From: Mediterranea massiliensis
GTDB lineage: Bacteria; Bacteroidota; Bacteroidia; Bacteroidales; Bacteroidaceae
NCBI GenBank assembly: GCA_015060685.1
Contig: SUXZ01000014.1
Span: 1-64,000, forward strand
Direction of reading: 5' to 3'
DNA: 64,000 nt
Shown here: positions 1 through 30,699 of the stretch, piece by piece
Numbering within the stretch: the first letter of the stretch is position 1
How the letters are laid out: each line of letters starts with the position of its first letter
The notes under the pieces: generated by a model
Database searches by the model: none
The model's input: the letters and a program-made list of their open reading frames with translations, nothing else
Told to the model about the DNA's origin: nothing
Program-made: the position numbers and the translations under genes

Positions 1-2
1 CC

Positions 3-884
3 ACCAATACCTATTATTACTACTTGAAAGATCATCAAGGAAACAATCGCGTAGTAATTAGCACTGATGGTACAGTACAAGAAACCAACCACTACTACCC
101 GTTCGGTGGTTTGTTCTCTACATCGACTAACGTACAGCCCTACAAGTACAACGGCAAGGAGTTAGACACCAAGAAAGGCTTGAACTTGTATGACTATGGT
201 GCAAGACATTACGATGCGGCATTAGGTCGTTGGCATGTAGTTGACCCATTGGCAGAAAAGTATGGTGCATTGAGTCCATATGGCTATTGTTTCAACAATC
301 CGATAAAGTTTGTGGATAAAGAGGGTGAAGTGCCTTTTATTGTTCCTTTCCTTGTTAAAGGATTAATTGGTGCAGCAATTGATGCAACCACTCAGGTCTC
401 TATTTCTATGCTTTCAGGCAATAGTTTTACTGCGGCTGTTGGAAGTATAGATATGGTTAGTGTAGGTAAATCCTTTGTTACTTCTGCTGTTCCAATGGGA
501 AAGGTCGCTAAATTGGGGTTTGAAGTTGCAGATGCGGCTGTAGATATAAAAGCTAATGGAAAAATTGAAAATGTTGTTACTGAAACTAAAGATATATCTC
601 ATGCTTTTTTTGATTTTGCAGCATCTAAAGCTAGTGATATAATTGCAGATGGTTTTACTAATGGATTAAGTCGGGCCATTTCCGATGACCTAGGTGCTAA
701 ATCTGCTGCTACAATGACAAAAGAAACGAAAGAAAGTTTAAAGCACACAAAAGAGGTTGTCAATAGTGAAGGATTCCAAAATACTGCATCTGCGATTACA
801 GGATTTGCGACAGGTTCTGTAAATGAAATAACTAAAGAATATATAAATGATTCTCTTTTATATGATGAATTGAAGAATAATTAA
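3..884 (+). CDS. Rhs core C-terminus with variable tip (5' end outside window)
   Basis: The reading frame is open from the first bases, so the gene starts upstream of the window. The first ~95 residues are the end of an Rhs/YD-repeat core: LKDHQGNN, the YYPFGGL stretch, then YGARHYDAALGRW and a DPLAEKY segment that marks the core boundary. After about residue 100 the protein changes to an AT-richer, Ala/Ser/Thr-rich helical tip of about 190 residues, which I do not recognise as a known toxin fold. In Rhs families such tips are usually secreted toxins cleaved from the core shell; that role is inferred here. A small membrane-protein gene follows after 47 nt and a terminator closes the unit. The same core segment recurs at 2263-2485. 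Confidence 0.85.
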   Translation, partial: TNTYYYYLKDHQGNNRVVISTDGTVQETNHYYPFGGLFSTSTNVQPYKYNGKELDTKKGLNLYDYGARHYDAALGRWHVVDPLAEKYGALSPYGYCFNNPIKFVDKEGEVPFIVPFLVKGLIGAAIDATTQVSISMLSGNSFTAAVGSIDMVSVGKSFVTSAVPMGKVAKLGFEVADAAVDIKANGKIENVVTETKDISHAFFDFAASKASDIIADGFTNGLSRAISDDLGAKSAATMTKETKESLKHTKEVVNSEGFQNTASAITGFATGSVNEITKEYINDSLLYDELKNN

Positions 885-931
885 TACATCCGATAAAATA
901 TCACCACACCTTTAACGAAACATAAACTAAT

Positions 932-1258
932 ATGAATAGAAAAATGAAATTAACCAAAAAACAAGATAGATGGTTAAGTATTGTAATATGGTCATTATTG
1001 ATAGTTATAGTAATAAGAGGTATTGTTTTTAATACTTCATTATCCAAGTATGGTAAAACGACAAAAGGGGTTGTTGTTGAAATAGATAGAGCTGGAAAGA
1101 CTGATACATTTGATTATGAATATTGCGTTAATGATAGAGTATTTGTTGGCCATACAAGTTTAGCTGGTATGCCAATACAAATAGGCGATACGATAGAAAT
1201 TCTTTATGACTCAACGAATGTAAGTCGTTCTCGTCCTTTAAAACATACTCCTTGGTAA
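932..1258 (+). CDS. Small membrane-anchored protein, candidate immunity protein
   Basis: The 108-residue product has a basic N-terminus, one strong membrane segment at about residues 16-32 (IVIWSLLIVIVIRGIVF), and a soluble domain with GKTTKGVVVEID and GDTIEILYD. This layout resembles the DUF3592-like group of short beta domains behind one helix. It lies 47 nt after the Rhs tip and just before a terminator, the usual place for an immunity gene. AT content is high, like the tip before it. The immunity role rests on position only; it could be an unrelated small membrane protein. Confidence 0.6.
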   Translation: MNRKMKLTKKQDRWLSIVIWSLLIVIVIRGIVFNTSLSKYGKTTKGVVVEIDRAGKTDTFDYEYCVNDRVFVGHTSLAGMPIQIGDTIEILYDSTNVSRSRPLKHTPW

Positions 1259-1270
1259 AATACTTTAAGT

Positions 1271-1306
1271 AGCCTCTTTGTTTTGTAACAAGGAGGCTTT
1301 TTTTTA
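1271..1306 (+). terminator. Rho-independent terminator after first Rhs tip unit
   Basis: A 12-bp stem (1271-1282 with 1287-1298, one G-T pair) encloses a 4-nt loop and is followed by a run of eight or more T. It ends the first tip/immunity unit. The orphan Rhs core frame becomes open within this hairpin. Confidence 0.85.
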
Positions 1307-1320
1307 AGTACCTTGGCGGC

Positions 1321-3174
1321 TTGGAAACCTATCAACACGCTTACGACCGTTTGGGCAATCCATTGAAGAAGAAGCATGTGCATACAGCAAGCGGCAAAAC
1401 CACCCGTACCGAGGAGCTGGCCTATACCTACGACAGCGGTGCACGTCCTACGAAGGTGACACACAAGTTGAATAGTGGCAGCACTGTTACCCTTGCTACT
1501 TATAGCTACGATGAGTTCTGCCGCCTTGCCAACAAGAAACTGCACGGCAGTAGCAATAGCACCAACCAACAAAGCTATAGCTATAACCTACATGGTTGGA
1601 TGACAAATGCCAATAGTGGAAAATTCAGTCAAACGTTAATCTACAACACGAATACGGTTGGTTTTACAGGCAATATTACGATAATGAACTGGACTACCGA
1701 TGGCCAGAATCGTACATACTCTTATACCTACGATGGCTTGAATCGTATGCTGAATGCTGTAGAAACGAATGGTCGTTATACCGAGAAGGTAACCGGCTAT
1801 GACAAGAACGGCAATATCTTGGGCTTGCAACGCTATGGACAAACAGGTGCAAGCAGCTACGGATTGGTAGATAACTTGACTTACACTTATAATGGAAACA
1901 AGGTAACGAGAGTAGATGATGCAACTACAGCCACATCCTACACAGGAGGCACGAACTTCATTAACGGAGCGAATACCAATAACGAATATACCTACGACCA
2001 AAACGGCAATTTAACAAAAGATTTGAATAAGGGTATTGCAAATATCACTTATAATTTGTTATCTTTGCCCCAAGTAGTTACGTTCAGTGACGGAAGTACC
2101 ATTACCTACACTTACACCCACGACGGAAAGAAACTCCGCACGGTGCATGTAATAGGCGGTGTAACCACCACTACGGACTACTGCGGAAACGTGATCTATG
2201 AAAACGGAACGGCCAAACGCCTATTGCACGACGAGGGTTATGTAGATTTGAGCAACAACACCTATTATTACTACCTGAAAGACCATCAAGGCAACAACCG
2301 CGTAGTAATAAACAGTAGCGGAGCGGTACAAGAAACCAACCACTACTACCCATTTGGAGGTTTGTTTGCTGCAAATGGCAGTGTACAGGATTACAAGTAC
2401 AATGGCAAGCGTTTGGATAGTTACTTAGGTTTGGATTGGTACGACTATGGTGCAAGACATTATGATGCTGCATTGGGAAGGTTTACGACTCAAGATCGAT
2501 TTGCAGAAAAGTATTCCGCTTTATCAACTTATCAATATGGAGCAAATAGTCCAGTATGCAATATAGATATAAATGGTGACAGTTTAAAAATAGTTTCATC
2601 TGATTTAATTACTGCGATATATCATGGGTTGAAAGATGGGAGTAGAATACAAATGAAGTTTAACAATGGAATATTGGATCCAGCTTCAATAAAAGATTCT
2701 GCAATGGAAACTGATGATTTATTTCTGCAAGATTTGTATGAGATTGCAATTAATTCTCAAATGGTAGAAATGTATCTAGATTCTAAAAATACTTATTTGT
2801 TGAATGGGATACCACATTCAGAAACATTTTCGGCTCCATATGATGATAATGATGATGTGTTGACAGATGCAATGAGAAGGGATTTAGAACTTATGGGTAT
2901 TCCTACAGGTAAACATGTCAATGGAAATTTAGGGCAAACATTAGTCCCAAATGTCTTGTTGCCTTCTAGAAAGAACTCTACTAATAATAATGTTCAGATT
3001 ATTATAAACAGTAAGGGGAATTTAAATCATAGAGCTATTGGTATTGCACATGAATTTGGACATGTAATACTATATTTAAGGAATCAACCTTTTAGCCATG
3101 GACAACCCGGAGTAAATTCATTTATAGATAGGCGTTCATCAATAATGTCAAAAAGATTAGGATATGAATATTAA
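1321..3174 (+). CDS. Orphan Rhs core with HExxH metallopeptidase-like tip
   Basis: This is an Rhs/YD-repeat fragment without N-terminus. The frame is open from 1273 to 3174 with no ATG before the core sequence; TTG at 1321 is only a nominal start. About 400 residues of YD repeats (SYTYDGLNR, LTYTYNGNK, NEYTYDQNGN) lead to YGARHYDAALGRF, after which a ~210-residue AT-rich tip begins. The tip contains AHEFGHVILYL near its end, an HExxH zinc-peptidase motif, followed by more His and Glu residues. It is probably a silent donor cassette that can replace the tip of the upstream full-length Rhs protein by recombination in the shared core. The next gene overlaps its end by 11 nt. Confidence 0.8.
   Translation: METYQHAYDRLGNPLKKKHVHTASGKTTRTEELAYTYDSGARPTKVTHKLNSGSTVTLATYSYDEFCRLANKKLHGSSNSTNQQSYSYNLHGWMTNANSGKFSQTLIYNTNTVGFTGNITIMNWTTDGQNRTYSYTYDGLNRMLNAVETNGRYTEKVTGYDKNGNILGLQRYGQTGASSYGLVDNLTYTYNGNKVTRVDDATTATSYTGGTNFINGANTNNEYTYDQNGNLTKDLNKGIANITYNLLSLPQVVTFSDGSTITYTYTHDGKKLRTVHVIGGVTTTTDYCGNVIYENGTAKRLLHDEGYVDLSNNTYYYYLKDHQGNNRVVINSSGAVQETNHYYPFGGLFAANGSVQDYKYNGKRLDSYLGLDWYDYGARHYDAALGRFTTQDRFAEKYSALSTYQYGANSPVCNIDINGDSLKIVSSDLITAIYHGLKDGSRIQMKFNNGILDPASIKDSAMETDDLFLQDLYEIAINSQMVEMYLDSKNTYLLNGIPHSETFSAPYDDNDDVLTDAMRRDLELMGIPTGKHVNGNLGQTLVPNVLLPSRKNSTNNNVQIIINSKGNLNHRAIGIAHEFGHVILYLRNQPFSHGQPGVNSFIDRRSSIMSKRLGYEY
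1717..2050 (+). repeat. Rhs core direct repeat, copy A
   Basis: This stretch encodes SYTYDGLNR through TKDLNKGI and is closely matched at 3955-4290 in the third Rhs fragment. It is a likely tract for homologous recombination between cassettes. Confidence 0.8.
2263..2485 (+). repeat. Rhs core direct repeat matching 3-240
   Basis: The segment from NTYYYYLKDHQGNN to YGARHYDAALGR is nearly the same at protein and DNA level as bases 3-240. It is the last conserved block before both tips, and so the natural crossover point for swapping tips. Confidence 0.85.
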
Positions 3175-3721
3175 AAAGGCACTTTTGTTTATAATTTTAA
3201 TTTTGCCATTTACTTGTGTTTTATCTCAAAATAAGGTTGTAGAAAAAACAACAATAATATCTTCTCAGGATACACCTTCGATAAGAATGGTGAGGGAGGT
3301 AACACATTTTGACGTGTCAGATAACCGCCCTAAGCTTACGATAGTTACCGATTCTATTGTTGGCGGTATTACAAGTACTAATTGTTATTATAAATACAGA
3401 GGGAAAAGTAGAGAAGTATTCCCTTCAGTAGTATTTATTGAGGGGCGTGATTCCCTTCAAGAAGATTTTAGTCTGTATTTTTGGGAGAATTATTTTGGGA
3501 ATGAAGTCAATGCTTCATGCATATATGTCATGTTGTTTAATGACAAATTAAAGATAAAAGATATAAGCATTATTGTACGTAGTGGCTATAATAATTCCCA
3601 ATATGACTTTGATAAATTGATAACAGATTTTTTATATTCTACTGAAGGTAAATGGAAAATTACTCATGAATATCAGTGTAACAGATGGTATTATGTAGTA
3701 GGAAGGATTTTTGTTAGGTAG
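3164..3721 (+). CDS. Secreted 185-aa protein, candidate immunity partner of the HExxH tip
   Basis: The product starts with a clear signal peptide (MNIKKALLFIILILPFTCVLS, cleavage expected just after residue 21), so it is exported. There is no lipobox. The mature part is a mixed alpha/beta domain without a family I recognise. The ATG lies inside the last codons of the preceding tip (11-nt overlap), so the two are translationally coupled, and a terminator follows. Base composition is AT-rich like the tip. By position it is the candidate immunity protein; periplasmic location would suit a tip delivered to the periplasm. The function is inferred. Confidence 0.65.
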   Translation: MNIKKALLFIILILPFTCVLSQNKVVEKTTIISSQDTPSIRMVREVTHFDVSDNRPKLTIVTDSIVGGITSTNCYYKYRGKSREVFPSVVFIEGRDSLQEDFSLYFWENYFGNEVNASCIYVMLFNDKLKIKDISIIVRSGYNNSQYDFDKLITDFLYSTEGKWKITHEYQCNRWYYVVGRIFVR

Positions 3722-3751
3722 AAATACATTATAAATTATATTTTAAATTGT

Positions 3752-3790
3752 TACTCCTTGCTTGTTATTATTAACAGCAAGGAGTATTTT
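3752..3790 (+). terminator. Rho-independent terminator after second Rhs tip unit
   Basis: An 11-bp perfect stem (3752-3762 with 3776-3786) carries an AT-rich loop and is followed by TTTT. As after the first unit, the T run leads into AAGTA and then straight into Rhs core sequence. Confidence 0.8.
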
Positions 3791-3798
3791 AAGTAGAT

Positions 3799-4539
3799 AG
3801 TACTTCGTTTAGCGTGTCCGAGTATTCCTACAATGGATTGAGGCAGCTATCAGGTATATACGGATAGAAGTTTGTAGAGGGAGTAAACTATTCTGGCCTT
3901 TACAATGGCAATATCAGGAGCATTAACTGGGGCACTCTGACAAACTGCCAATCGTACACTTATATCTATGATGGCTTGAACCGTCTGACCGAAGCCATAC
4001 ATAGCGGTAACCGATTCACGGAGAAAGTAACCGAATATGACAAGAACGGCAACATCAAGAAGCTGCAACGCTACGGCCAAACCGGTGCAAGCAGTTACGG
4101 CCTTGTAGATAACCTGACCTATACTTACAATGGTAACAAACTGACACGAGTGGATGATGCCGTAACAGCCACATCCTACACCGGTGGTACTAACTTTGTG
4201 AACGGTGCAAGCACAAGCAATGAATACGTTTACGATGCAAACGGCAATATGACGAAAGATTTGAATAAAGGAATTAGCAATATTCAATACAATTCATTAA
4301 ATTTAGATAAGATAGGCTGCGCCTCGGGATAAAAAATAAATAGATTTATTTTGTTCTCCTCTCGGCTTGCACTATCTTTGCCCCAAGTAGTTACGTTCAG
4401 TGACGGCAGCACCATTACGCAGAACAGTGTGCCCACTACGTTGTCCTACACCACTCCCGACACCGGCTACGACTATGCCGCCTGCTACTACAGCCAACTG
4501 CATGCATGGAGTGAATATGGCAGTTCATCCTTAAAATAG
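3799..4539 (+). pseudogene. Decayed third Rhs core fragment
   Basis: Rhs core sequence is readable from about 3799 (EYSYNGLRQL), but it meets an in-frame TAG at 3865-3867. It continues in the same frame as YTYIYDGLNRL through TKDLNKGI to a stop at 4330-4332. A 78-bp promoter-bearing repeat is inserted at 4303-4380. After it the core resumes with PQVVTFSDGSTIT and then a non-matching run to 4539. There is no tip or immunity gene. It is a mosaic remnant, not a working gene. Confidence 0.8.
4303..4380 (+). repeat. 78-bp promoter-bearing repeat inside Rhs remnant
   Basis: This segment aligns without gaps to the reverse complement of 16264-16341, the promoter region of the DEAD-box gene, with roughly ten mismatches by eye. 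It keeps TTTG at 4350-4353 and TATCTTTG at 4373-4380, with the same 19-nt spacing. The right junction falls at TATCTTTGcCCC, a string also present in the intact Rhs core at about 2058-2069. Confidence 0.85.
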
Positions 4540-4605
4540 GATGAGTTTCTACTAAAGAGCTACCTTTACATAGGGTATGCGTAAAATAAATAGCCGTGCT
4601 ATTCC

Positions 4606-4632
4606 TTTGTTTCACTTTTTCGTGTATCTTTG
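4606..4632 (+). promoter_or_regulatory. Probable ruvB promoter
   Basis: TTTG at 4606-4609 and TATCTTTG at 4625-4632 fit the Bacteroidetes -33/-7 pattern with a short 15-nt spacer. The ATG of ruvB is 21 nt downstream. Confidence 0.6.
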
Positions 4633-4653
4633 CTTCGTAAATAGTTTAATGCT

Positions 4654-5688
4654 ATGGAACAAGAAGATTTTGATATACGCCGCCAACAACTCTCGTCGGG
4701 GAAGGATAAGGATTTCGAAAATGCCTTGCGACCCCTTTGTTTCGAGGATTTCAGCGGACAAGACAAGGTGGTGGACAACCTGCGCATCTTTGTGAAGGCT
4801 GCCCGATTGCGTGGTGAGGCACTGGACCACGTGCTTCTGCATGGCCCTCCGGGATTGGGAAAGACTACGCTTAGCCAAATCATTGCCAACGAGTTGGGCG
4901 TGGGATTCAAGATTACCAGCGGCCCCGTGCTGGACAAGCCGGGCGACCTGGCCGGTATCCTGACCAGCCTTGAACCGAACGATGTGCTGTTCATCGACGA
5001 GATTCACCGTCTCAGCCCCATCGTGGAGGAGTATCTTTACTCGGCCATGGAGGACTATCGCATCGACATCATGATAGACAAAGGCCCCTCGGCACGAAGC
5101 ATACAGATTGATTTGAACCCATTTACTTTGGTGGGCGCAACCACACGAAGCGGATTGCTCACGGCTCCTTTGCGTGCACGCTTCGGCATCAACCTGCACT
5201 TGGAGTATTACGACGACGAGGTGCTGAGCGGCATTATCCGGCGCTCGGCTTCCATTCTGGATGTGCCTTGCTCGAACCGTGCCGCCGGCGAGATTGCCGG
5301 ACGAAGCCGCGGTACGCCGCGTATTGCCAACGCCTTGTTGCGCCGTGTGCGCGACTTTGCACAGGTAAAGGGCACCGGAAGCATCGATACCGAGATAGCG
5401 CAATATGCTCTCGAAGCGTTGGGTGTGGATCGCTACGGCCTCGATGAAATCGATAATAAACTGCTCTGTACCATCATCGACAAATTCCGCGGAGGCCCCG
5501 TAGGCATTACCACCATTGCTACGGCATTGGGCGAGGATGCCGGCACCATTGAAGAGGTTTACGAGCCTTTCCTTATTAAGGAGGGTTTCTTGAAACGCAC
5601 TCCTCGCGGACGCGAAGTCACTGAGCTTGCCTATAAGCACTTAGGCAGAAGCCTTTATAGCAATCAAGGAAACTTATTTAGTGATTAG
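4654..5688 (+). CDS. ruvB: Holliday junction branch migration helicase RuvB
   Basis: RuvB is the hexameric AAA+ motor that, with RuvA, drives branch migration of Holliday junctions. The 344-residue length is normal. Visible are Walker A GPPGLGKT (64-71), Walker B FIDEIH (about 113-118), sensor I GATTRSG, an arginine-finger region APLRARFG, sensor [14 protein letters not shown], and the C-terminal winged helix with TPRGREVT. The last residues SD and the stop codon are written by the heptamer array that starts at 5679, so the native end was probably replaced when that array arrived. Confidence 0.97.
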
Positions 5689-5713
5689 TGTTTAGTGATT
5701 AGTGATTATTGTT
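5679..5713 (+). repeat. Left heptamer array (TAGTGAT-type, five units)
   Basis: Five perfect 7-bp steps (TAGTGAT, TAGTGTT, TAGTGAT, TAGTGAT, TATTGTT) run from inside the ruvB stop region directly to the ATG at 5714. The array is in inverted orientation to the one at 6071-6105, so a transcript could pair the two and loop out the gene between. Confidence 0.85.
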
Positions 5714-6088
5714 ATGGGAAGTGAATATAAAGGGATATTAAGAGATAAAACTAAGGCTTTTGCTATAAGGATAATAAAATTATATCAGTACCTATCATCA
5801 CAGAAAAAGGAAACGGTTCTTTCCAAACAATTATTGCGTGCAGGAACAGCTATCGGTGCTTTACAACGAGAAGGCGAATACGGAGAAAGTCCAATGGATT
5901 TTATTCATAAATATGCCATTGCTCAAAAGGAATGCAACGAAACTATTTATTGGATAGAATTATTATATGAAACTTCATATTTGAGCCAAGAAGAATACGA
6001 AAGTATAAACGGTGATGCTGAAGAGTTGATGAAATTATTAACGAGCAGCATAAAAACATTAAAATCAAAACTAATCACTAATCGCTAA
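5714..6088 (+). CDS. Four-helix bundle protein (S23/IVS-encoded family)
   Basis: The 124-residue product matches the S23-type four-helix bundle family: FAIRIIKLYQYL, a QLLRAGTAIGA stretch, then EGEYGESPMDF and KECNETIYWIELL. Members are known from intervening sequences in 23S rRNA genes, and relatives (Avd) serve in diversity-generating retroelements, but many are stand-alone and of unknown role. I chose ATG 5714 over GTG 5702, which lies inside the repeat. The gene is bracketed exactly by inverted heptamer arrays, which also write its last residues (LITNR) and stop. No rRNA or reverse transcriptase is nearby. Confidence 0.85.
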   Translation: MGSEYKGILRDKTKAFAIRIIKLYQYLSSQKKETVLSKQLLRAGTAIGALQREGEYGESPMDFIHKYAIAQKECNETIYWIELLYETSYLSQEEYESINGDAEELMKLLTSSIKTLKSKLITNR

Positions 6089-6105
6089 CCGCTAATCACT
6101 ATTAT
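6071..6105 (+). repeat. Right heptamer array (CTAATCA-type, five units)
   Basis: Five 7-bp steps (CTAATCA, CTAATCG, CTAACCG, CTAATCA, CTATTAT) are the reverse complement register of the left array. They encode the end of the four-helix bundle gene and stop 1 nt before the ATG of the flippase gene. Confidence 0.85.
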
Positions 6106-6106
6106 C

Positions 6107-7549
6107 ATGGCTAATTTAAAGAGTTTGGCAAAAGACACTGCTATTTACGGATTGAGCAGCATAGTAGGCAGGTTTCTGAACTACCTGTTAGTGCCCATCT
6201 ATACCAATGCCATGACCGCCGAAAGCGGCGGATATGGTGCGGTGACCAACATCTATGCATGGGTGGCGCTGGTCTTGGTGCTGCTTACTTGCGGCATGGA
6301 GACAACCTTCTTCCGTTTTGCCAACAAGCAGGAAGAGAATCCTATGCGGGTATATGCTACAGCCCTGTTCTTTGTGGGCGGTGCATCGCTGCTCTTCTTG
6401 GTAGCCGGCCTGGGACTTTTGCAACCCATAGCCGGATGGCTGGGGTATGCCGAACATCCTTGGTATGTAGGGATGATGATGATGGTGGTGGCGATGGATG
6501 CCATCCAATCCATACCGTTTGCCTACCTTCGTTACAAGAAACGCCCGATAAAGTTTGCCGCCCTGAAGTTGCTCTTCATTGGTTTGAACATTGCCTTGAA
6601 CCTGATTTACTTTGTAGGCATGAAGGGTAGCGACCCGGGAGCAGCCTTCTTCCTCAATCTGATTTGCACATCGGTCATCATGCTTTGCTTGATTCCGGAG
6701 TTTCGCGGTATCCCTTGCGTTTGCGACCGCCAACTGCTTCGCCGCATGCTTTCCTATAGTCTGCCGTTGTTGGTGTTGGGCCTGGCAGGTATCCTCAACC
6801 AGGTGGCCGACAAGATTATCTTCCCCTTTGTCTATCCCGACGAGGCGCAAGCCGATGTGGAGCTGGGCATCTATGGGGCAGCCGTAAAGATTGCCATGGT
6901 GATGGCTATGCTGACGCAGGCTTTCCGCTATGCTTACGAGCCGTTTGTCTTTGCCGGAAGCAAGGAGAAAGATAGTCGGAAGACCTATGCCGATGCCATG
7001 AAGTTCTTCATCATCTTCACGCTCTTGGCCTACCTGGCCGTGATGTTCTACATGGATATCCTGAAGCACATCATTCCCCCCGACTATTGGCCGGGTTTGA
7101 AAGTAGTACCTATCGTGATGGCCGCCGAAATATTTATGGGCATCTATTTCAACCTCTCCTTCTGGTATAAGCTGATTGACGAAACACGTTGGGGGGCCTA
7201 TTTCTCAATCATTGGTTGTGCCGTGCTGATCAGTGTCAACGTATGGCTGATTCCTCGCTACAGTTACATGGCCTGTGCGTGGGCCGGATTTGCCGGCTAT
7301 GGTGTAGCCATGCTGCTCTCTTATTTCGTGGGGCAGAAGAAGTACCCCATTGCTTACGACCTGAAGGCCATCTGCTGCTATGTGCTATTGGCCGCCTTGC
7401 TTTATGCCGCCGCTATGCTGGTACCTATCGATAACTTCTGGTTGCGCATGGCCTACCGCACCTTGTTGTTGCTACTCTTTGTGGGGTATATCGTAAAGCG
7501 CGATTTACCGTTGAAGCAGATACCCTTTATCAATAGATTTGTGCGATGA
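6107..7549 (+). CDS. Polysaccharide/oligosaccharide flippase (MATE/Wzx-like)
   Basis: The 480-residue protein is almost all membrane helices, about 12-14, beginning with SLAKDTAIYGLSSIVGRFL, the typical N-terminus of polysaccharide-biosynthesis (RfbX/Wzx-like) transporters in Bacteroidetes. Such proteins flip lipid-linked glycans across the inner membrane. Its stop overlaps the next ATG by 4 nt, so the two genes are co-translated. No glycosyltransferases adjoin it, so the substrate cannot be told from context; the surface-glycan cluster at 45-53 kb is one possible client. Confidence 0.85.
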   Translation: MANLKSLAKDTAIYGLSSIVGRFLNYLLVPIYTNAMTAESGGYGAVTNIYAWVALVLVLLTCGMETTFFRFANKQEENPMRVYATALFFVGGASLLFLVAGLGLLQPIAGWLGYAEHPWYVGMMMMVVAMDAIQSIPFAYLRYKKRPIKFAALKLLFIGLNIALNLIYFVGMKGSDPGAAFFLNLICTSVIMLCLIPEFRGIPCVCDRQLLRRMLSYSLPLLVLGLAGILNQVADKIIFPFVYPDEAQADVELGIYGAAVKIAMVMAMLTQAFRYAYEPFVFAGSKEKDSRKTYADAMKFFIIFTLLAYLAVMFYMDILKHIIPPDYWPGLKVVPIVMAAEIFMGIYFNLSFWYKLIDETRWGAYFSIIGCAVLISVNVWLIPRYSYMACAWAGFAGYGVAMLLSYFVGQKKYPIAYDLKAICCYVLLAALLYAAAMLVPIDNFWLRMAYRTLLLLLFVGYIVKRDLPLKQIPFINRFVR

Positions 7550-9684
7550 AAAGGCTCATTTTACTTCTTTTCTCACTTTGTTGCCTCTTGCCGGCACAAG
7601 CCGATGAGGGCATGTGGATGTTGGCTAACCTGAATAAGAAGGTTCGTCGTGACATGAAGGAGCGAGGACTGGAAATGTCGTTGAAGCAACTGTTTCATCC
7701 AAAGAAGGCTTCACTGAAGGATGCCATTGTCAGTTTCGGTGGTTTCTGTTCGGGGGTGGTGGTGAGCGAAGAGGGCCTGTTGCTGACCAATCATCATTGC
7801 GGATTCAGTAGTGTGCAGCAACACTCGTCGACGGCTCACGACTATTTGCAGGATGGCTTTGTGGCCCGCAATAGGGAGGAAGAGCTTTCTTGTCCCGAGC
7901 TTTATGCCCGCTTCTTAGTGAGTCAGGAAGATGTAACCAAACGGGTATTGGCCGAAGTGACGCCAACGATGGATGAGGCCAAGCGAACGGCCGTCATCGA
8001 CTCTATGGTGTACTTGATAGAAGAGGAGGCTTACCGCAAAGATACCACGTTAGTTGCTATGGTAGATGCCTATTATGGCGGCACGGAGTTTTGGCTTTCC
8101 ACTTATCGCGACTATAACGATGTGCGGTTGGTATATGCTCCGCCTACTTCGGTGGGTAAGTTCGGATGGGATACCGACAACTGGATGTGGCCGCGTCATA
8201 CGGGCGATTTCTGTGTGTTCCGCATTTATGCCGATGCTGACAACCAACCGGCCGACTATTCTCCCGACAACCGTCCGTATCGTCCGCGCTATGTGGCACC
8301 TGTCTCGGTGGAGGGCTATCGGGAAGGCGATTTCTGCATGACCATCGGCTATCCGGGTAGCACCGAACGCTACCTCTCTTCTTATGGCATCGAAGAGATG
8401 ATGCTGACGCAAAACCAGGCACAAATTGATGTCAGGGGAGTGAAGCAGGCTATTTGGGAGCGCGCTATGGATAGGAGTGACAGTATCCGGATAAAGTATG
8501 CCTCCAAGTACGACGAAAGTTCCAACTACTGGAAGAACAGCATCGGCATGAACCGCTCCATTAAACAACTGAAGATTTTGGAGAAAAAGCGGGCGGCCGA
8601 ACAGGAACTTCTTCGATGGATTCGGCAAAATCGTACTGCCGATGAATCTTCGTTGCTCCATCTCTTTACCGATTTGGAACTGAATTACGAGGCCCGTCGC
8701 GAAGGGTATAGGGCACAGGCCTATCTGTTGGAGGCCTTCTTCAATGCTGCCGAACTTTTCCCCTTGGCCTTGGCGATACTGAACCTGGATATCGACGGTG
8801 ATGAGCAACAGTTGCAATCGGCCGTCAAGGAGATTACGAATATCTATGCCGACTACGACAAGGAACTGGATAAGGAGGTGTTTGTGGCCATGCTGGACAC
8901 CTATCGAAAGCAGGTTCCTACAGAGTATCTGCCAATGTTTTATCTGATAATCGATGGCCGGCACGCGGGCAGTGCGCAGGCATTTGCCGACTCAATCTAC
9001 CAGCACACTGCACTGACCGATATCGGGGCACTGCACTCCCTCTTGCAACGCGATTCCACGTTCAATGCCTTCAATGATGCTGCAACGGATGTCTGTCTCG
9101 ACCTGTTAGTCTCGTATATGCAGTTGAATGCCAGTATGCAACAGACAACAGAGAAGATTCAGCAATCCGAACGCATGTTCTCCACCGCTATGCGCAGGAT
9201 GTATGCCGCCCGCAATTTCTATCCCGATGCCAACTCTACCATGCGCCTGAGTTTCGGCGCGGTAGCGGGTTATCAGCCGGCCGATGGGGTGGTGTACGAC
9301 TACTATACCACCACGCAAGGCATCTTGGAAAAGGAGAAGCGGCATAAGGGCGACAAGGATTTCTACGTACAGCCCGAAATACTCTCGTTGCTGCAGGGCG
9401 ATTTTGGCCGATTAGCCGATGAAAACGGCGAAATGCGCGTCTGCTTCATTACCGACAACGACATTACGGGAGGCAATAGCGGCAGTGCCATGTTCAACGG
9501 CAACGGCGAGCTGATAGGCTTGGCTTTCGATGGCAATTGGGAGGCCATGAGCAGCGACCTACAATACGAACCACACCTACAACGATGTATAGGTGTGGAT
9601 GTACGTTATATGCTATTCATTATCGAGCATTATGGTAATGCCAAGCATATTGTGGAAGAAATGATGTTTGGTAGTGATAAGTGA
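7546..9684 (+). CDS. S46 family dipeptidyl-peptidase, DPP7-type
   Basis: This exported serine exopeptidase should release dipeptides in the periplasm. It has a signal peptide (LILLLFSLCCLLPAQA), TNHHCG with the catalytic His (about 81-86), the DTDNWMWPRHTGDF block with the catalytic Asp (about 207-221), and GGNSGSAMF with the catalytic Ser (about 644). The residue 18 positions after that Ser is Gly (FDGNWE), as in DPP7, which prefers hydrophobic P1; DPP11 has Arg there. Its 712 residues are typical. The last residues SDK and stop come from the heptamer hairpin at 9672-9738. Confidence 0.93.
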   Translation: MKRLILLLFSLCCLLPAQADEGMWMLANLNKKVRRDMKERGLEMSLKQLFHPKKASLKDAIVSFGGFCSGVVVSEEGLLLTNHHCGFSSVQQHSSTAHDYLQDGFVARNREEELSCPELYARFLVSQEDVTKRVLAEVTPTMDEAKRTAVIDSMVYLIEEEAYRKDTTLVAMVDAYYGGTEFWLSTYRDYNDVRLVYAPPTSVGKFGWDTDNWMWPRHTGDFCVFRIYADADNQPADYSPDNRPYRPRYVAPVSVEGYREGDFCMTIGYPGSTERYLSSYGIEEMMLTQNQAQIDVRGVKQAIWERAMDRSDSIRIKYASKYDESSNYWKNSIGMNRSIKQLKILEKKRAAEQELLRWIRQNRTADESSLLHLFTDLELNYEARREGYRAQAYLLEAFFNAAELFPLALAILNLDIDGDEQQLQSAVKEITNIYADYDKELDKEVFVAMLDTYRKQVPTEYLPMFYLIIDGRHAGSAQAFADSIYQHTALTDIGALHSLLQRDSTFNAFNDAATDVCLDLLVSYMQLNASMQQTTEKIQQSERMFSTAMRRMYAARNFYPDANSTMRLSFGAVAGYQPADGVVYDYYTTTQGILEKEKRHKGDKDFYVQPEILSLLQGDFGRLADENGEMRVCFITDNDITGGNSGSAMFNGNGELIGLAFDGNWEAMSSDLQYEPHLQRCIGVDVRYMLFIIEHYGNAKHIVEEMMFGSDK

Positions 9685-11920: not shown

Positions 11921-12006
11921 AATCATTTTGTTTTAAAGGGTTATTACTTGTTTTATTACTATATTCTTGCTTTGTCGTTGCAGGTTGTTTCCCTGTTTCG
12001 ACATTG

Positions 12007-12014
12007 CAAAAATA
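12007..12014 (-). promoter_or_regulatory. ahpC -7 box
   Basis: TATTTTTG on the minus strand fits TAnnTTTG. No clear TTTG lies 19 nt upstream, as expected for an activator-dependent promoter. A direct repeat ATTTCCGATT (12022-12031 and 12040-12049) occupies the -33 region. Confidence 0.6.
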
Positions 12015-12067
12015 TAGCAGAATTTCCGATTAAAACAATATTTCCGATTGAAAGGTTTTATGGCCCG

Positions 12068-12082
12068 ATAGATGTTTTCTAT
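12068..12082. promoter_or_regulatory. Candidate OxyR half-operator upstream of ahpC
   Basis: ATAG-N7-CTAT is the dyad form of one OxyR half-operator. It sits about 54-68 nt upstream of the ahpC -7 box and overlaps the oxyR stop codon. Assignment is by motif and position only. Confidence 0.4.
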
Positions 12083-13008
12083 AAGGTGGCTTGAGAGACC
12101 CTGAGCTTGAGCATTTCGCGCGGCACAGCTCCTTGAATTTCAGCGATTATGGTTTGTAATAATGTCTGGCGAATGTAGTTCTTGTTGGTCATCATAATGA
12201 GTTGGCGGGTGGGGACGGGAACGGCAAACGGGCGTACCAATCTTTTTTGTGCTTCGCTCATCTGCATTACGGCCAGTTCGGGGATAAAGGTCACGCCACG
12301 TCCGCTTTCCACCATGCGCATAAAGGTCTCCATGCTACCCAGGCGGTAGGTCAGTTGGCTGTTTTGTGCTGGTTTCAGTTGGCAGAACTTCACCAACTGG
12401 TCGCGAAAGCAGTGTCCTTCGTCAAGCAGCCAGAGTTGGTTGCTTGTTGCCAGGTCGGAAGTGCGTATCTTCTCTTTTTCGAATAGCGGATCCTCCTCGG
12501 CAATGTAGGCATAGTATTGCTCATAAAAGAGGTGGTTGATGGTGTACTCTTCGAAATCGGGCATGTTGGCTAAGATTCCGGCATCAATATCGCCCGTTAG
12601 CAATGCTTGCTTAATGTCAGAGGTCTTCATCTCGCTGACACGAATGTCCAACTTAGGAAATTTCTTTTCCAAGGTAGGAAAGAATCTTGGTAGCAAATAG
12701 GGGGCAATGGTAGGCAAGATGCCCAATCGGAACACTCCGCTTACCTCCTGTTGTGCTTCTTGGATGAGGCTTTTAATCCGTCCGGCCTGTACCAGCACTT
12801 CGCGTGCTTGTTCTATGATTTGTTGGCCAATGGGTGTAATGCCAATGGGTTGACGATTGCGTTCGAAGATTTTCGTTCCCAATTCTTCTTCCAATTTTTG
12901 AATCATGGCACTCAGCGTGGGTTGTGTCACGTTGCATTGTTCGGCCGCCTTGCCAAAGTGGCGCAATTGGTCGAGGGCGAGGATGTATTCCAATTGTTGC
13001 AGAGTCAT
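12079..13008 (-). CDS. oxyR: Hydrogen-peroxide sensor, LysR-type regulator OxyR
   Basis: The 309-residue LysR-type regulator has an N-terminal winged HTH (YILALDQLRHFGKAAEQCNV) and a C-terminal sensor domain. The two redox cysteines are at 200 and 209 in GHCFRDQLVKFC, matching E. coli Cys199 and Cys208 in position and spacing, so it is a true OxyR. ATG 13008 is chosen because the upstream ATG at 13038 lies inside the -7 box. It sits just upstream of ahpC in the same direction, with the ahpC promoter in the 158-nt gap, and is the expected activator of ahpCF. Confidence 0.95.
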   Translation of the reverse strand: MTLQQLEYILALDQLRHFGKAAEQCNVTQPTLSAMIQKLEEELGTKIFERNRQPIGITPIGQQIIEQAREVLVQAGRIKSLIQEAQQEVSGVFRLGILPTIAPYLLPRFFPTLEKKFPKLDIRVSEMKTSDIKQALLTGDIDAGILANMPDFEEYTINHLFYEQYYAYIAEEDPLFEKEKIRTSDLATSNQLWLLDEGHCFRDQLVKFCQLKPAQNSQLTYRLGSMETFMRMVESGRGVTFIPELAVMQMSEAQKRLVRPFAVPVPTRQLIMMTNKNYIRQTLLQTIIAEIQGAVPREMLKLRVSQATL

Positions 13009-29754: not shown

Positions 29755-30699
29755 TTACCTCAACAAATTACTTACTGCCGCCTGATAGTTGCTGAGCTTG
29801 GATGTTTTGTGGATAACCTTTTTCGCTTTGCGGTCGCCATCGGGTAGGAGGTATTCCCAGAACGTGCGCATTTTGGTGAGGAGTTGCTGTTCGCCCCCTT
29901 CGAGCAGGTTGCCGTATTGGCTGAAGACATCGGCATGGAGCAACCGGATTTTCTCCATCATTGCTTGTGGCGATAGCGGCTCGCCTTGCTGGTATTCGAT
30001 GGCTAAGGCTGGGTTGGCAAGCAGGCCGCGGCCAATCATCAAGCCGGCCAAACGTGGGAAGCGGCTTTCGATGCGTTCAATATCGTCCAGCGTCAGCAAA
30101 TCGCCATTATATACCAACGGCTTTTCGCATTCGGCATAGAAACGTTGGAAGGCCTCCAAATCTACCTCACCCTTGTATTGCTGCTTACCTAAGCGGGGAT
30201 GCATGGTGATGTGGGATAGGGGGAGGCTATTCAGTAATGGGAGCAGTGCCATACATTCGGCGGCATCTTCCCAACCTAAACGCATTTTTACCGAAAAACG
30301 GATGTCGGGATGGGCTTCGAGGGCTGCGCTTAACAAAGCCTTAACCTCGTCGGGATAGGGGAGCAGTCCGGCACCGTTGTGACGCTTGGCCAAAGTGGGG
30401 AACGGACAGCCTAAGTTGATGTCCACTTCCTGATAGCCTTTCTCGATGAAAAGGGACAAAATGTGCAAAATGGTCTCGGGCGTTGAGGCTATCAGTTGGG
30501 GCGTAAGCACTACTCCGCGATTGTTTTCGGCTTCCAGTTCGCGCACGTCCTTGCGTCGGAAATCGCCGTGTTCGATGCGGACGAACGGGGTGTAATAACT
30601 GGCTATGCCGCCAAAGATGCGGGCGTGCGCCTGGCGGTAAATGGCATCGGTGTAGCCTTGCAAAGGTGCAAAATGTATGGGTAGTTTTTCTTTCTTCAT
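29755..30699 (-). CDS. tRNA-dihydrouridine synthase
   Basis: This FMN enzyme reduces uridines in tRNA. The 314-residue protein begins IHFAPLQGYTDAIYR, has the catalytic Cys98 in NLGCPFPTLAKRHNGAGLL, SVKMRLGW, the HPRLGKQQYKG phosphate-binding loop, and MIGRGLLANP. The family is clear, but which Dus subgroup and tRNA position cannot be told. Its -7 box (30704-30711) sits so close to the start that the mRNA may have no leader. Confidence 0.93.
   Translation of the reverse strand: MKKEKLPIHFAPLQGYTDAIYRQAHARIFGGIASYYTPFVRIEHGDFRRKDVRELEAENNRGVVLTPQLIASTPETILHILSLFIEKGYQEVDINLGCPFPTLAKRHNGAGLLPYPDEVKALLSAALEAHPDIRFSVKMRLGWEDAAECMALLPLLNSLPLSHITMHPRLGKQQYKGEVDLEAFQRFYAECEKPLVYNGDLLTLDDIERIESRFPRLAGLMIGRGLLANPALAIEYQQGEPLSPQAMMEKIRLLHADVFSQYGNLLEGGEQQLLTKMRTFWEYLLPDGDRKAKKVIHKTSKLSNYQAAVSNLLR

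Follow-up and report, generated by a model that had tools for sequence, protein, structure and literature searches.

Does the short run of Rhs genes at one end of a Bacteroidaceae contig belong to a system in which recombination within a common core exchanges toxin tips together with their immunity genes? The DNA analyzed here (the window) comprises bases 1 to 64,000 of contig C9, which is 71,915 bases long and belongs to a genome of 2.6 Mb in 31 contigs. We consider it very likely that the window captures a polymorphic Rhs toxin locus at its downstream end, where displaced C-terminal tips are strung together. The anatomy of displaced tips is directly visible; the toxin and immunity functions, the export of the proteins, and the direction of each event are what we infer.

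Three Rhs core pieces follow one another between positions 3 and 4498, all on the forward strand, as the original prediction had it. Contig C9 begins at base 1, inside an Rhs core. The first piece (3 to 229) is the 3′ end of a core up to its LGR junction and is open to the contig end. It runs in frame into an AT-rich tip (tip 1, 230 to 884) in which no family exceeded its cut-off, followed by a small gene (932 to 1258), likely an immunity gene, that has a weak match to DUF3592 (18.2 bits; cut-off, 25.3) and a membrane segment as judged by eye. A terminator-like hairpin with a T-run (1271 to 1298) ends this cassette. The second core (1310 to 2480), 79.8% identical to the core on contig C17, is an orphan without a proper start: its frame opens past a stop at 1270, has its first TTG at 1321, and reaches its first in-frame ATG only at 1600, after 97 codons. 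It too continues in frame into its own AT-rich tip (tip 2, 2481 to 3174), whose end is overlapped by a second small gene (3164 to 3721), again a likely immunity gene, with a start that looks signal-peptide-like by eye. An ortholog of this gene (66% amino acid identity) lies beside the tip 2 ortholog at locus L108 of a Mediterranea massiliensis metagenome-assembled genome (MAG). A hairpin at 3752 to 3786, also conserved in L108, is the likely terminator of the second cassette. The third core (about 3800 to 4498) is decayed and scrambled, in that pieces of earlier core come after later core (4419 to 4471 and 4464 to 4498 match the earlier core of C17), and a 72-base dispersed promoter-like element is inserted in it, in the forward orientation, at 4305 to 4376, with TTT on both sides. 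The array ends at 4498/4499, where the upstream flank of ruvB begins (4499 to 4653, forward strand).

Profile matches and base composition bear out this order. Matches to TIGR03696 (Rhs_assc_core) at 93 to 326 and 2344 to 2577 exceed the curated cut-off, which is exceeded at three places in the whole genome, and RHS_repeat scores 22.1 bits in orphan core 2 (cut-off, 22) and 28.1 bits in the C17 gene. The GC content is 35.8% in tip 1, 31.6% in tip 2, and 30.6% and 30.8% in the small genes; the cores have 42.5 to 44.6% and the window has 47.0%. The locus thus combines what defines Rhs polymorphic toxins, namely, an Rhs-associated core with YD/RHS repeats and different C-terminal tips on the same core. 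To judge by the anatomy, the small gene after each tip probably protects its owner as an immunity gene.

Tip 1 had been taken for the end of a long gene. The sequence does not show this: the contig breaks off at base 1, and the tip of the full-length C17 gene is a different one. The genome has two full-length Rhs starts. On C17, a gene for a 1,021-amino-acid partner protein precedes a DUF6443 Rhs gene that runs for 921 amino acids and then off the contig; at the right end of C9, a 1,023-amino-acid partner precedes at least 522 amino acids of Rhs. The link from a full-length gene to the window array is interrupted by contig ends, and the assembly breaks inside the locus. It is hardly plausible that C9 continues from its right end into its left end, so C17 is the likely neighbor of base 1. 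With another tip already present on the C17 gene, tip 1 is probably an orphan too, a conclusion reasoned from contig ends and not from a measured join. Past the common core, tips 1 and 2 and the C17 tip differ, with a weak 32% likeness to the C17 tip in the first 59 amino acids of tip 1 after the linker. A search of 398 other genomes of the family gave no match to tip 1.

The other edge of the array can be placed by comparison with sister genomes. Similarity to the window begins at 4499 in G473 and at 4583 in an M. massiliensis genome, and neither matches 3701 to 4498, the Rhs part searched. In both, a gene before ruvB that we take to be alkD-like adjoins ruvB with no Rhs between them. The window genome has its homolog at one end of contig C27, pointing off the contig, as it would if the Rhs locus lay between the alkD-like gene and ruvB. 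One more remnant of an Rhs core is found where contig C20 ends. There (L017), and in relative G017 (L047), Rhs sits beside the same gene run, presumably GH130-like, MFS, and epimerase-like genes, in opposite orientations at the two loci. Beyond the array, some 418 bases of the window (5688 to 6105) are missing from sisters G473 and G471; the stretch holds a 128-codon frame between inverted TTAGTGATTAGTG-type repeats and looks like a small mobile unit.

How alike are the cores within this genome? They had been described as matching each other closely, which is too strong: aligned over the full blocks, DNA identity is 76.9% between 2 to 226 and 2253 to 2477 and 73.0% between 1663 to 2041 and 3899 to 4280. 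Ungapped sub-blocks reach 75 to 85%, and the longest exact runs common to the blocks are 26 and 34 bases. The full-length C17 gene is 83% identical to core 1 and 78 to 80% identical to core 2, with a longest exact run of 46 bases between window cores and C17. At fourfold sites, core 2 and C17 agree at 32 of 52 (62%), the same value as ruvB between species. In a tree, core 2 groups with G473 (86/87) and not with C17, and the genome's own two cores do not group. By identity, exact runs, and tree, clear recent exchange was not seen among the window genome's cores, which on these values appear to have drifted too far for frequent exchange at present. Two observations point towards exchange in this genome nevertheless: the full-length loci on C17 and at the right end of C9 have exact runs as long as 71 bases in common, and a 46-base stretch that is 96% identical between cores 2 and 3 may be a short conversion tract. 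The original prediction would have fallen had the downstream cores diverged as genes with their own starts; the cores have diverged, and proper starts are absent.

This drift invites the leading alternative, which accepts a history of displacement but holds that the orphans are no longer moved to the full-length gene, so that only their immunity genes matter, or nothing does. It is a real possibility, one that we lean slightly against. It accommodates the diverged cores with their short exact runs and the scrambled core 3, and within positions 1 to 4700 the promoter-like pattern TTTG-N19/20-TAnnTTTG occurs inside the core 3 insert only. Tips 1 and 2 are nevertheless still open frames, and tip 2 keeps its HEFGH (HExxH) site. 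Tip 2 is predicted to be a metallopeptidase-like domain; its AlphaFold model has a mean pLDDT of 84.3, and comparison with solved structures gave only weak matches, several of them to zinc metallopeptidases. A scan of species genomes found relatives of tip 2 at 17 loci, of which one genome has three, and H189, E190, and H193 are kept in all 17. The nearest is that of L108 (the MAG has the handle G539 and is apparently identical to G451), which is 85% identical in amino acids despite far-diverged silent sites. Moreover, tip 2 also occurs on a long gene elsewhere, because the frame at L122 is closed and 1,323 codons long; among the other loci, 6 frames are open at a contig end and 10 are closed at fewer than 460 codons.

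Similarity between the window and L108 spans the core, tip 2, the partner gene, and the hairpin and then ends. The neighbors differ: L108 has another tip upstream and an intact core with a further tip downstream. Elsewhere in L108, positions 5409 to 5551 and 7417 to 7559, each comprising hairpin, junction, and core start, are 97% identical on either side of a cassette with another tip (tip D), as expected from tandem duplication or insertion of a circle.

Relatives give a clearer record of the process. A survey of 41 genomes (the window genome and 40 others) found the Rhs core domain in 20, and in 11 of these, by our count, two or more core ends lie within 5 kb of each other on the same contig and strand. 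In G017, a partner gene and a full-length Rhs gene (a 1,136-codon frame) precede seven orphan cores, every one of which leads into its own tip; these retain 359 to 1,329 bases of core, stop within 40 bases of a common 3′ point, and are 88 to 97% alike. A 326-base pretoxin there is 99% identical between the full-length gene and a distal fragment (11997 to 12322 and 29863 to 30188, reverse strand) and then leads into different C-termini, suggesting that exchange also takes place at a second site, within the tip. In G189, a full-length gene is accompanied by ten more core ends over some 30 kb, and the M. massiliensis MAG has 10 core ends on three contigs. Identity between cores of one locus is about 85 to 97% in M. 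massiliensis, G017, and G189, compared with 73 to 77% in the window.

Core and tip histories are separate, a result carried by the sister species and not by the window genome alone. In a tree of the eight M. massiliensis cores with enough core sequence and 12 others, cores form clades by genome: M. massiliensis (eight cores, three contigs; 100/100), G189 (six cores; 100/99), G537 (two cores; 100/99), and G473 (90/88). A clade of the two tip 2 cores (core 2 of the window and core 2 of M. massiliensis) was rejected, with a p-AU of 2.4e-9 (2.8e-4 in a first tree); a clade of the two tip D cores was not (p-AU, 0.115). At fourfold sites, M. massiliensis cores 2 and 3 are identical at 64 of 69 (93%), whereas between species the values are 28 of 60 (47%) for tip 2, 52% for the partner gene, 99 of 159 (62%) for ruvB, and 45% for core 2. 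Therefore, the M. massiliensis cores became homogenized after the two species had separated, and the tips remained distinct. The best exact runs between M. massiliensis cores are 65 to 157 bases, against at most 46 between window cores and C17. The difference in raw identity between core (70.9%) and tip (82.6%) is no evidence of separate histories, because their fourfold identities are alike (45% and 47%).

The 72-base insert acts as a natural tag in these comparisons. In the M. massiliensis MAG, an insert of 72 to 76 bases marks the same core point in three cores on three contigs, although the copy on that genome's contig C9 has non-core sequence on its left; one more insert adjoins a shorter remnant of core. 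The copy on contig C27 of the MAG is matched at 94 to 98% by the other three array copies, the genome's seven remaining matches reach at most 87%, and the array inserts fit one insertion followed by copying. From the tag to LGR, the marked cores are mostly 90 to 100% identical per 40-base step (lowest, 80%), after which the tips are unrelated: the four tips, including a remnant tip, gave no pairwise hit at 1e-3 with the linker removed (13 tips compared). Tip D occurs on a marked core (C27) and, as a variant of 70% amino acid identity, on an unmarked core (C9), and near-identity in this pair extends some 250 bases into the tip. One marked core thus carries different tips.

These data speak against an island of old duplications whose cassettes have been inherited unchanged, with no exchange. 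The window genome taken alone would suit such an account, its cores being as divergent as orthologs. However, the cores of M. massiliensis, G189, and G537 each form one clade regardless of tip, tip 2 cores are rejected as a clade, and one marked core bears different tips in M. massiliensis, so that for the relatives this account is largely refuted and overall we hold it to be highly improbable. Recombination in the core that swaps a tip together with its immunity gene, as first proposed, is well supported in relatives by the tagged cores, the genome-wise clades, and the conserved tip 2 unit; in the window's own locus, clear recent exchange was not found.

The junctions were also examined. Both hairpins fold better than all 200 shuffles of their sequence (z, -4.3 for hairpin 1 and -6.0 for hairpin 2), and the stretch containing hairpin 2 (3722 to 3791) is 87.5% identical in L108. 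A separate terminator pattern scan of positions 1 to 4700 found 5 sites, with 2.9 expected by chance, and called hairpin 1 only, the stem of hairpin 2 being followed by just four T residues. A hairpin after each tip unit is therefore upheld by folding, and its reading as a terminator by the scan for the first unit only. As for the proposed T-run-AAGTA lead into a startless core, core 2 lacks a proper start, and T-run-AAGTA occurs at both window junctions (1302 and 3787) and once more on the opposite strand, but it is not a conserved joint, because it is absent from all 13 junctions checked in two relatives (G017 and L108). A site-specific, integron-like cassette system with hairpin and AAGTA as its joint, suggested by TTTTAAGTA beside the hairpin at both window junctions, is almost certainly wrong, given those 13 junctions, the widely varying 5′ ends of the G017 cores, and the fact that AAGTA in part lengthens the stem of hairpin 1.

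The insert itself belongs to a dispersed family with 24 matches in the window genome. Downstream of 19 of these, an ATG frame of at least 60 codons starts within 90 bases on the same strand (several matches are tandem copies before one gene); on the other side, this holds for 1 of 24. Many of the genes that follow look like housekeeping genes and, by eye, are presumably lepA, mnmG, trpS, metG, and priA. The window copy and four M. massiliensis array copies contain TTTG-N19-TATCTTTG, which we take to fit the Bacteroides promoter consensus; two G189 copies have a spacing of N24. A motif scan of 62 sequences found 46 core sites, of which 6 carry the whole insert (2 in G189, with different inner sequence) and a further 2 carry its last bases only. 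These two, at window position 2059 and in core 3 of L189, have just TATCTTTGCC and are perhaps short conversion tracts. The G189 insert may be a separate insertion or an old common one.

Displacement at Rhs loci has been described before. In Enterobacteria, Jackson et al. (2009; PMC2935791) reported conserved cores, variable AT-rich tips, and strings of dissociated tips downstream, with core fragments of varied length mostly without a start and with decoupled core and tip histories, all as here. The present locus differs in belonging to Bacteroidaceae, in having an Rhs of the DUF6443 type preceded by the gene for a large partner, and in the absence of a PAAR match in either protein. The passages of that paper on displacement also report identical cores within a locus; those of the window genome are 73 to 83% alike, which counts against the displacement reading. 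Poole et al. (2011; PMC3150448) described orphan cdiA-CT/cdiI and rhs-CT/rhsI modules in which, as here, a toxin fragment without initiation signals and its immunity gene occur in arrays with homology from one junction to the next; the junction motif given there is VENN (CDI), whereas here exchange falls at the LGR core end and, a second time, within the tip. Koskiniemi et al. (2014; PMC3967940) gave experimental evidence in Salmonella LT2 for an orphan Rhs toxin expressed after recombination across 522 bp at 95% identity. The route predicted here, between a full-length and an orphan core, is the same, although the cores are 77 to 83% identical and the case is known from sequence alone. The order of toxin and then immunity gene, the standalone cassettes, and displacement at the 3′ tip also agree with polymorphic toxin systems as surveyed by Zhang et al. 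(2012; PMC3482391), a general survey whose cassette passages are not on this locus type. As far as the passages of these papers on displacement and orphan modules extend, the array is of that known kind (PMC2935791, PMC3150448, PMC3967940), and core exchange is documented, by comparison, for the sister species and not for the window's own genome.

In the displacement reading, a full-length DUF6443-type Rhs gene, with its signal-peptide-like start and large partner gene before it, would gain units of tip, immunity gene, and terminator by homologous recombination in the common 3′ core. Each gain would push the old tip downstream as an orphan, with some core of arbitrary length still attached but lacking a proper start and a signal peptide. 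With a hairpin behind every partner gene, reading from upstream would not extend into the orphans. The same recombination could copy an orphan back onto the full-length core, or the orphans may act solely as an immunity store. As for export, the C17 protein lacks the N-terminal PAAR domain of type VI PAAR-Rhs effectors; it starts with a signal-peptide-like segment and DUF6443 (94.2 bits; cut-off, 27.8), and profile comparison found no PAAR match in it or in its partner.

Arrays of orphan tips have been worked out in Enterobacteria and CDI systems, and here one is seen in Bacteroidaceae, whose Rhs proteins, to judge from their sequences, seem to use general secretion and not a type VI PAAR tip. 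The most unusual detail is that the core insert belongs to a dispersed promoter-like element. As a rare fixed mark on a core, it lets tip exchange be read directly from genomes. Always facing the tip, at a fixed point of silent Rhs cores in at least two distant Bacteroidaceae lineages (the window species with M. massiliensis, and G189), the element, 72 to 77 bases long with TTT on both sides, might also be a portable switch that allows orphan units to be transcribed without relocation, an idea that we consider unlikely on present evidence. If the element does switch on silent cassettes, these bacteria would have a second way to use them beside recombination.
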